Part shown: positions 4,010 to 25,275 of the stretch, one piece after another | How positions within the stretch are numbered: the stretch's first letter is position 1 | Layout: every line of letters starts with the position of its first letter | Assembly: GCA_030698405.1 (NCBI GenBank) | Contig: JAUYMU010000036.1 | Location: 1-36,701 of the forward strand | Length of the DNA stretch: 36,701 bases | Direction of reading: 5' to 3' | Origin: Bacteroidota bacterium | GTDB lineage: Bacteria > Bacteroidota > Bacteroidia > Bacteroidales > Prolixibacteraceae | The notes under the pieces: generated by a model | Database searches by the model: none | Told to the model about the DNA's origin: nothing | The model's input: only the letters and a program-made list of their open reading frames with translations | Position numbers and translations under genes: made by a program

Positions 4010-4021
4010 CTCTATTCGGTT

Positions 4022-4054
4022 ACTCAGCAGGTGACTTGGAGTCACCTGCTGAGT
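4022..4054. repeat. Solitary REP-like palindrome next to der
   Basis: A perfect palindrome with two 15-nt arms (ACTCAGCAGGTGACT and its reverse complement) around a 3-nt spacer TGG. The same arms recur around the RAYT gene at 24.3-25.3 kb, where the spacer is CAA or TTG. It sits between the der stop codon and the der terminator, in the 3' untranslated part of the transcript, where a stable hairpin could protect the mRNA 3' end (inference). Confidence 0.9.
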
Positions 4055-4071
4055 ATTGCTCAATTTCCCAT

Positions 4072-6563: not shown

Positions 6564-6713
6564 TTATGTATGAATGAAGGTTTTAAAAATCTGCGCAAAG
6601 ATAGTTAATTAATTAGCTTATCGGCAAATGCCCTATTTCCGACTTCACGAATTAACAAATTGATTGAAAGGGAGATTTTTGTATTTGCAGGTCGGGGTTT
6701 CACTTTTTGCAGA

Positions 6714-6744
6714 GTCAGGGTTTCACTTTGAGTGAAGCCCTGAC
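6714..6744. repeat. Long hairpin downstream of the START-like gene
   Basis: A 14-bp stem with one G-U type mismatch pairs 6714-6727 with 6731-6744 (GTCAGGGTTTCACT with AGTGAAGCCCTGAC). A direct echo of one arm (GTCGGGGTTTCACTT) lies just upstream at about 6691. No T-tract follows on either strand. It is either a weak terminator of the minus-strand gene or a small palindromic repeat. Confidence 0.55.
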
Positions 6745-6783
6745 TGATTTGAACGCAGATGTTGGAGATGAAGGATCAAAAAT

Positions 6784-24294: not shown

Positions 24295-24327
24295 ACTCAG
24301 CAGGTGACTCAAAGTCACCTGCTGAGT
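24295..24327. repeat. Full REP-like palindrome (downstream side of RAYT)
   Basis: Two perfect 15-nt arms (ACTCAGCAGGTGACT and its reverse complement) surround spacer CAA. It starts 14 nt after the GH29 stop codon, so it may also end or stabilise that transcript. It is identical in its arms to the copies at 4022-4054 and 25226-25258. Confidence 0.93.
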
Positions 24328-24511
24328 ATCTGAAAATCATCTGCTTAGAGTGACTCAAAGTCACCTGCTGAGTATCTGAAAATCATCTACTTAGAGTGAC
24401 TCAAAGTCACCTGCTGAGTATCTGAAAATCATCTGCTTAGAGTGACTCAAAGTCACTTGCTGAGTATTTGAAAATCATCTGCTTAGAGTGACTCAAAGTC
24501 ACCTGCTGAGT
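24328..24511. repeat. Tandem array of four 46-bp units carrying half-degenerate REP palindromes
   Basis: Four contiguous 46-bp units start at 24328, 24374, 24420 and 24466 and differ at only a few positions. Each consists of about 21 nt of linker (TCTGAAAATCAT, then CTGCTTAGAG) and the REP core GTGACTCAAAGTCAC with an intact right arm CTGCTGAGT. The left arm ACTCAGCAG has been replaced. The array continues directly from the full palindrome at 24295. Confidence 0.93.
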
Positions 24512-24536: not shown

Positions 24537-25139
24537 TCAATACACTAACCCAAATTCATTTGCACGGTCTTTATTGATAAGTTTGCCGTTTCTTAAACCG
24601 GCATAATCTCTGGCCGACGAAAATTCCCATTCTTCCTGTATTTTCACAAATCCATCTTTGACCGGATTTGCATGGATATAGTCGAAACATACTTGAGGAT
24701 ATTCCTTTATCGGATCTGAAATGTTGATGATAGCGCCAAAATTTGACTGAAACCATGTTGGAGAAATACCTTCCATCTGGGTTAAGCAGCTTGCCTTTGT
24801 GCGATTTTGAAATAGGCTTCCTGTTAAATTCTCTTGTTTTTGGATAGCTCTGGTGTATGAGCGCAAAATAATTGAAATAGAATCATTGAGCGAACGCCTT
24901 TTAGTGAGCAGGTGACTCAAAGTCACCTGCTCACTAATCTCCACCTCGACATTATTGACATGTACCATTAAATGAAAATGACTTGGCATCAAACACCAGG
25001 AAAGAATATCTGCATGGGGTAAAATGTTTTTCCTGATCTTCTCTAAAAAAAACAGGTAATTTTCCCGATTGAAAAAGATCTTTTGTGAATTGTTGCCACG
25101 GTTGTAAATGTGGTAAAGATGAGATTGTTCGAATTGCAT
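24537..25139 (-). CDS. REP-associated tyrosine transposase (RAYT, HUH/Y1 family)
   Basis: Single-strand DNA transposase of the IS200/IS605-related REP family, which nicks and joins at REP hairpins using a tyrosine. The start chosen is ATG at 25139 (MQFEQSHLYHIYNRGNN), the typical RAYT N-terminus, giving 200 aa; a TTG at 25184 would add 15 unlikely residues. The HUH motif is H54-F-H56 (CLMPSHFHLMVHV) and the catalytic tyrosine is Y154 (FDYIHANPV). GSLFQNRTKA and WEFSSARDYAG are also family blocks. Residues 67-81 (ISEQVTLSHLLTK) are encoded by an in-frame REP palindrome. The gene is flanked on both sides by copies of the same palindrome, consistent with it being the enzyme that recognises them. 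Confidence 0.93.
   Translation of the reverse strand: MQFEQSHLYHIYNRGNNSQKIFFNRENYLFFLEKIRKNILPHADILSWCLMPSHFHLMVHVNNVEVEISEQVTLSHLLTKRRSLNDSISIILRSYTRAIQKQENLTGSLFQNRTKASCLTQMEGISPTWFQSNFGAIINISDPIKEYPQVCFDYIHANPVKDGFVKIQEEWEFSSARDYAGLRNGKLINKDRANEFGLVY
24901..24937. repeat. Variant REP palindrome embedded in the RAYT coding sequence
   Basis: Perfect 17-nt arms pair 24901-24917 with 24921-24937 around spacer CAA. The inner part AGCAGGTGACT is shared with the flanking copies, while the outer bases are changed on both arms together (TGAG/CTCA in place of TCAG/CTGA). It is read in frame as ISEQVTLSHLLTK in the RAYT protein. Confidence 0.93.
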
Positions 25140-25204: not shown

Positions 25205-25219
25205 ACTCAGCAGGTGACT
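25205..25219. repeat. REP half-unit (left arm only)
   Basis: The 15-nt left arm ACTCAGCAGGTGACT is followed by CAA, but its right arm is missing: a second, full palindrome begins 7 nt later. It looks like a truncated copy abutting the intact one. Confidence 0.85.
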
Positions 25220-25225
25220 CAAACT

Positions 25226-25258
25226 ACTCAGCAGGTGACTTTGAGTCACCTGCTGAGT
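25226..25258. repeat. Full REP-like palindrome (upstream side of RAYT)
   Basis: Perfect 15-nt arms pair 25226-25240 with 25244-25258 around spacer TTG. Because the arms are symmetric, the spacer shows orientation: it is inverted relative to the CAA copies on the other side of the RAYT gene. It lies 87 nt upstream of the RAYT start and 78 nt upstream of the GH9 start. Confidence 0.93.
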
Positions 25259-25275
25259 AAACAAAAACTTTCTTG

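Follow-up and report, generated by a model that had tools for sequence, protein, structure and literature searches.

In-frame insertion of REPs into the genes of their own transposases has been described before. Quentin et al. 2018 (PMC6006769), in the part of the text available to us, reported in-frame REPs inside tnpA_REP genes and stated that they are unique to subclass 2.4. The insertions of this subclass generally fall from HuH to Y, where the part between beta3 and alphaC varies in length and was modelled as peripheral, and the genes are also flanked by REPs. In the same account, subclass 2.6 is found in Bacteroidetes and shows atypical hairpins without GT[AG]G, a C-terminal serine motif and a WQ motif. 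Its 21-aa insertion lies between alphaC and beta4, not before alphaC, and the available text reports no in-gene REP for it. E. coli TnpA_REP (structure 4er8) depends on GTAG for its REPs, and the available portion of PMC8266576 contains no mention of a REP within its gene. Rickettsia palindromic elements are in-frame palindromic repeats of about 150 bp in unrelated protein genes, as far as described in the accessible sections of PMC10969869 and PMC3733652.

The window, i.e., the whole stretch of DNA analysed here (36,701 nt), is contig C49 of a 5.49-Mb draft genome. It contains a gene for a REP-associated tyrosine transposase (RAYT), whose features are listed in Table 1. The first-pass annotation of the window had described a palindrome in frame inside this transposase gene, with the ORF remaining open, and this description is borne out. 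The palindrome, 37 nt in length, follows the HUH motif in the 200-aa ORF. Its arms are perfect, and the symmetry is broken only at the bases of the loop, which read CAA on the plus strand. The best-scoring hairpin of the gene reaches 17, whereas 300 dinucleotide shuffles gave at most 12.

Table 1. Positions in the window of the RAYT gene and the REPs associated with it.
Feature	Position	Strand	Remarks
RAYT / TnpA_REP gene, 200 aa	24537..25139	-	HUH H54/H56, catalytic Tyr154
In-frame REP palindrome	24901..24937	-	Residues 68-80; arms 17 bp, loop 3 nt
REP past the 3' end of the gene, first unit of 46-bp tandem array	24295..24328		Palindrome search
Five REP cores with 46-bp spacing	24304..24512		Copies 2-5: palindrome of just 6-7 bp plus right arm
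Half REP (left arm), upstream of the RAYT gene	25205..25223		Palindrome pair I15
Intact REP, upstream of the RAYT gene, 16-bp arms	25225..25259		Palindrome search

The window RAYT scores 47.9 bits against NCBIfam NF047646 (REP-associated tyrosine transposase), and nine members of the group score 47.9-67.9 bits, all under the cut-off of 80 bits, which is a curated naming threshold and no biological definition. PF01797 matches the window RAYT only at E 0.011. The predicted structure (mean pLDDT 86) has its best match in the REP transposase 4er8, which is bound to a REP hairpin (Foldseek E 8.3e-08). An HUH fold and the association with REPs are shared with E. coli TnpA_REP as described in the available portion of PMC8266576. 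H54, H56, Y154, and N158 are invariant in all 130 relatives, the HUH and Tyr motifs being also entry conditions for this set. The gene is flanked by REPs that are dispersed in the genome, here those at 24295-24328 and 25225-25259. In the 46-bp tandem array that adjoins the gene, the left arms of the REP cores are truncated.

The in-gene palindrome is identified as a REP because its core, GTGACTNNNAGTCAC, is repeated 38 times in the 5.49-Mb genome, where the reversed control pattern occurs 0 times; the first-pass annotation had proposed such a genomic search. Seven of the 38 belong to the RAYT locus, and the window has one other, at 4031. At least 14 copies were found in 10 of 22 other genomes of the same genus, with 0 or 1 copy of the control pattern in each. 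One of the genomes, G011, has 20 copies of the core though without a match to P0001 at E 0.001. The first-pass annotation also stated that the in-gene palindrome has the same core as the flanking REPs. This holds for the inner part, which is common to both, but not for the outer arm, which is TTAGTGAG.. in the gene and (T)ACTCAG.. in the flanks (88% identity). The in-gene REP belongs to the family found in the flanks. Dispersed REP copies with the AGTGAGCAGG arm are present in this genome, whereas the RAYT flanks carry the ACTCAG arm instead. Elsewhere in the window, another REP of the family of the in-gene palindrome is seen at 4021-4055, and a hairpin of the GGGTTTCACT family, also present at the RAYT loci of relatives, at 6713-6745.

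Relatives were collected from genome searches, genome contigs and retrieved stretches. The best-scoring of the listed places were favoured and part of the list was used, so the 130 genes obtained are not exhaustive. Entry required the HUH and Tyr motifs, a profile score of at least 100, and a stop-free frame of at least 110 aa. ORFs without HUH, or with HUH among the first 30 residues aligned, were left out, and genes sharing a 60-aa stretch were merged. From 143 ORFs with HUH, 138 had the Tyr motif; 8 of these scored below 100, and 130 were kept.

Fifty-five of the 130 distinct relatives contain an in-gene hairpin with a score of at least 11, and the total number of hairpins is 60. In 20 rounds of codon shuffling, the mean number of genes with a hairpin was 0.5 and the maximum was 2. 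A threshold admitting weaker hairpins (score 9, with two mismatches at most) gave 62 positive genes among the 130. By position, 58 of the 60 hairpins, in 54 genes, fall after HUH and within the first three quarters of the distance to the catalytic Tyr, and the remaining two are at the C-terminal end. Neighbouring ORFs of at least 200 aa contain a hairpin in 12 of 308 cases; 7 of their 13 hairpins start at or before codon 12 of stop-to-stop frames, and these may be extragenic. In terms of density, there are 60 hairpins in 76,803 nt of RAYT genes versus 12 hairpin ORFs in 334,656 nt of neighbouring ORFs.

RAYTs of the NF047646 type were used as a control and showed an in-gene hairpin in 0 of 18, a weak comparison in that 12 of 30 loci were unparsed and only 3 of the 18 had flank hairpins. 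In the plasmid collection, just three remote matches (25-27% identity) were found, giving no sign of a plasmid carrier there. Only one relative was found among 44 pattern matches in viral contigs, giving no sign of a phage carrier in that collection.

The in-gene hairpins fall into 26 sequence families by single linkage. In 35 of the 54 genes, the in-gene REP matches a hairpin in the flanks of its own gene at 0.8 or higher, compared with 4.1 on average and at most 12 in 2000 permutations. Flanks extended up to 2 kb, or less where less DNA was available; 46 of the 54 genes have at least one flank hairpin, and eight have none in the available DNA. For the other 19, no hairpin of the flanks reaches 0.8. 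The in-gene palindrome is a real REP, recurrent, and mostly cognate.

The family of the in-gene REP changes between relatives. Two paralogues from Sunxiuqinia dokdonensis DH1 (L048 and L049) are 88% identical outside the hairpin, and their in-gene REPs are 73% alike. The match to their own flanks is 0.79 for L048, just below the threshold of 0.8, and 0.94 for L049. As this pair shows, close relatives can differ in the in-gene family together with their flanks. On a quick tree built with the loop columns excluded, at least 17 changes between presence and absence of the in-gene hairpin are required, a count made on a tree in which 51 of 127 inner branches are weak. Presence in the gene and presence in the flanks were not significantly linked among eight independent pairs on supported branches (median p 0.5). 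L028 has an in-gene REP that differs from the one nearest in its flanks. It does match a REP at a distance of 1.2 kb, and may have come from another RAYT.

Remnants of older REPs accompany this turnover. In L020 and L031, the left half of a REP of the window type, ATTAGTGA(A/G)CAGGTGACT, lies beside a complete REP of a newer, different family. Pieces of REP arms of 13 nt were found outside the own hairpins in 8 of 124 loops, whereas the two control stretches gave 1 and 3 such hits in 124. Of the eight, those in L040 and L090 are T/A-rich and may be matches by chance. L068, the one locus tried as an empty site, was rejected, since it contains half a REP; no clean empty site was found.

The recipient region is a loop of variable length. 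Alignment of homologues, which the first-pass annotation had suggested as a check, places residues 68-80 in this loop. The stretch from HUH to Y95 is 22-24 aa in the shortest hairpin-less relatives and 32-72 aa in genes with a hairpin. With one hairpin its median is 42 aa, and with two its length is 58-69 aa; hairpin-less genes also reach up to 69 aa. All 58 in-loop REPs are in frame, which carries no evidential weight because the genes were chosen as open frames; in 24 of the 58, only a single frame is open, and it is the one used. In the model of the window RAYT, the REP-coded residues are on two strands, 65-71 and 77-83 (pLDDT around 73 for 71-80). The model of the REP-less relative L066 has corresponding strands at 68-70 and 76-78. 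Judged from strand assignment rather than from coordinates, the REP seems to lengthen a short beta-hairpin that existed before.

The first-pass annotation was not aware of any described REP of this kind, and on this point the report of 2018 (PMC6006769) takes precedence. The basic phenomenon, as given in its available text, has been known since then, and the window case is a variant of it. With subclass 2.4, the present group shares the in-frame REP, its location between HuH and Y in the variable beta3-alphaC region, and the flanking REPs. Three features of that subclass were compared. For the WQ motif of subclass 2.4, the column equivalent to W94, placed via the GSLF motif, is F in 122 and W in 2 of the 130 relatives, a placement made uncertain by 41 of the 130 with a W somewhere in the stretch from HUH to 15 residues before Tyr. 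Subclass 2.4 lacks a C-terminal serine extension, whereas a C-terminal SS (S175) is present in 129 of the 130. The GT[AG]G foot of subclass 2.4 is found within 5 nt of only 2 of 132 flank hairpins and 1 of 60 in-gene hairpins. The present group thus looks like a variant outside subclass 2.4, a provisional placement, since it is set apart by printed features only.

The named relatives, 31 loci, presumably all belong to Bacteroidetes. In the feet of the hairpins, the SS motif, and the host phylum, the group is provisionally nearer to subclass 2.6. Alignment A1 has no long insertion before the F110 column, and W is absent there, the column comparison with subclass 2.6 being based on the printed description. 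Compared with the Rickettsia elements, the REPs here are shorter (around 30-47 nt; 37 nt for that of the window RAYT) and cluster in the gene of the transposase of their own family; the Rickettsia-like feature, in-frame insertion in unrelated protein genes, is seen in 2 of 37 copies examined. In-gene REPs are now seen in a RAYT group without the published features of subclass 2.4 that were compared. The change of the inserted repeat's family over time is what goes beyond the description of 2018. The available account of subclass 2.4 (PMC6006769) does not mention turnover or fossils, and no description of family turnover at the in-gene site was found in the open PMC literature searched, as far as its texts were accessible.

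The reading we favour, and regard as probable though far from certain, is repeated insertion and overwriting at a permissive loop, by whichever REP family is current. It starts from what the loci display directly, namely the identity of the REP, its position, its match to the flanks, the turnover of families, and the fossils. A copy of the REP family of the genome would have been inserted in frame in the RAYT loop that separates the HUH strand from the following helix, the recipient being presumably the mobiliser of the same family. The loop would act as a permissive site, in which the REP is free of stops in the frame used and its peptide is predicted to lie on two strands extending the existing beta-hairpin. 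The site would receive REPs repeatedly, mostly of the family flanking the gene at that time. Newer insertions would overwrite older ones and leave half-REP fossils. We infer that the RAYT itself performed the insertion and that the palindrome was kept perfect by repeated replacement from the REP pool, or by selection on the hairpin. Simple copying from the flanks is argued against, because the TTAGTGAG.. variant is common to L008 (the window), L015, and L016, and nearly to L048, while their flanks carry ACTCAG...

Selection on a functional hairpin is an unlikely alternative. The RAYT might bind the REP in its own mRNA or single-stranded DNA, thereby limiting expression or marking the gene, and selection would keep the hairpin; autoregulation of this kind is possible. 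Consistent with it, the sequence outside the hairpin has changed between the orthologues L008 and L048 at 175 of 564 bases and at 35 of 45 fourfold sites, whereas the hairpin has 2 of its 39 bases and none of its 5 fourfold sites changed. The sense-strand RNA of a 161-nt stretch around the in-gene REP has a fold z of -5.43, and 0 of 200 shuffles are equally stable. In-gene hairpins are as perfect as the best flank hairpins, with no mismatch in 25 of 55 and 26 of 55, respectively. However, the constancy of the DNA can be explained either by selection on the hairpin or by exchange of the entire unit for a copy from the genomic pool. Forty-two pairs whose hairpins are alike despite high divergence were picked by this likeness and are not counted as evidence of selection. 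Among the 80 relatives with a hairpin within 300 nt of the gene, 32 have none inside it, and the in-gene REP is therefore not required. Moreover, L017 and L018, whose proteins are 93% identical to that of the window, have lost the palindrome by six and five changes, respectively, yet their frames are open and their flank REPs intact. Outside the hairpin, each differs from a close gene with an intact hairpin, at 30 of 558 and 29 of 564 positions, respectively.

Passive tolerance, the view of Quentin et al. 2018, supposes that REPs land anywhere and survive in loops or linkers, the RAYT loop being merely tolerant. We consider this improbable as the whole explanation. REP insertion into unrelated ORFs is in print (PMC3733652, available sections). 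In the present genome, the surroundings of 37 of the 38 core copies were examined, and two copies besides that in the RAYT are in frame in recognisable genes. One (L147, 1022-1168) lies in a MurF/alanine racemase gene and is followed by around five 24-bp half-REP units, a tandem expansion. The other (L149, 1061-1095) falls in the linker that joins a CusB-like adaptor to an HMA domain. Nevertheless, the excess density of hairpins in RAYT genes over neighbouring ORFs, and the match of in-gene REPs to their own flanks, demand local bias or retention in addition to tolerance.

It is very improbable that the element uses the in-gene REP as a site of internal nicking or recombination. Between the orthologues L008/L015 and L016, the hairpin differs in the loop trinucleotide alone, which is exactly reverse-complemented (TTG vs CAA) with the arms the same, as cutting and rejoining or recombination between the arms would predict; three point changes could also give this inversion. 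An ancestral peptide with codons palindromic by chance can be dismissed because of the hairpin score above all shuffles of the gene, the recurrence beyond codon shuffles, the 38 genomic copies, the flank match, the family turnover and fossils, and the constancy of the L008-L048 hairpin at 35/45 fourfold divergence, and nothing was found in its favour. Homologues encoding the same peptide with unrelated codons, which the first-pass annotation named as the contrary case, are not what the alignment contains: relatives show either a different palindrome or, although their synonymous divergence is saturated, the same DNA.

In a more far-reaching reading, which we regard as rather doubtful, the in-gene REP might act as a heritable substrate tag. 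The gene by itself could then seed a REP population, and a switch of family would overwrite the tag and leave half-REP fossils. This reading is suggested because 14 of the 62 genes positive under the weaker criterion have no hairpin within 300 nt in the available DNA, and because the in-gene family of L048 and L049 differs along with the flanks. If true, each RAYT gene would carry its current substrate, at the DNA level, within the coding sequence. The action of RAYTs on REPs in living cells is, to our knowledge, still little understood. Successive REP families in the transposase's own gene could serve as a record of the REP handled by a given RAYT, and the 26 families would offer a ready set of pairs of RAYT and likely substrate for biochemistry.

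Some REP copies outside the RAYT coding sequence deserve mention. Five further copies in the genome (L130, L131, L140, L142, and L156) lie within short or N-terminal stop-to-stop frames of 97-326 aa and were taken by eye to be extragenic. In L149, the REP is directly preceded by the peptide TPSATQSRARS, which the RAYT paralogue on C43 also has in its in-gene REP. L054 has a REP in frame at codon 213 of a 440-aa ORF, which we take to resemble a type I restriction specificity subunit. The open RAYT frames of L062, L065, and L068 run on into a large ATPase/helicase-like ORF, presumably Pif1-like. In L065 and L068, a hairpin sits at the junction of the RAYT frame and this ORF.
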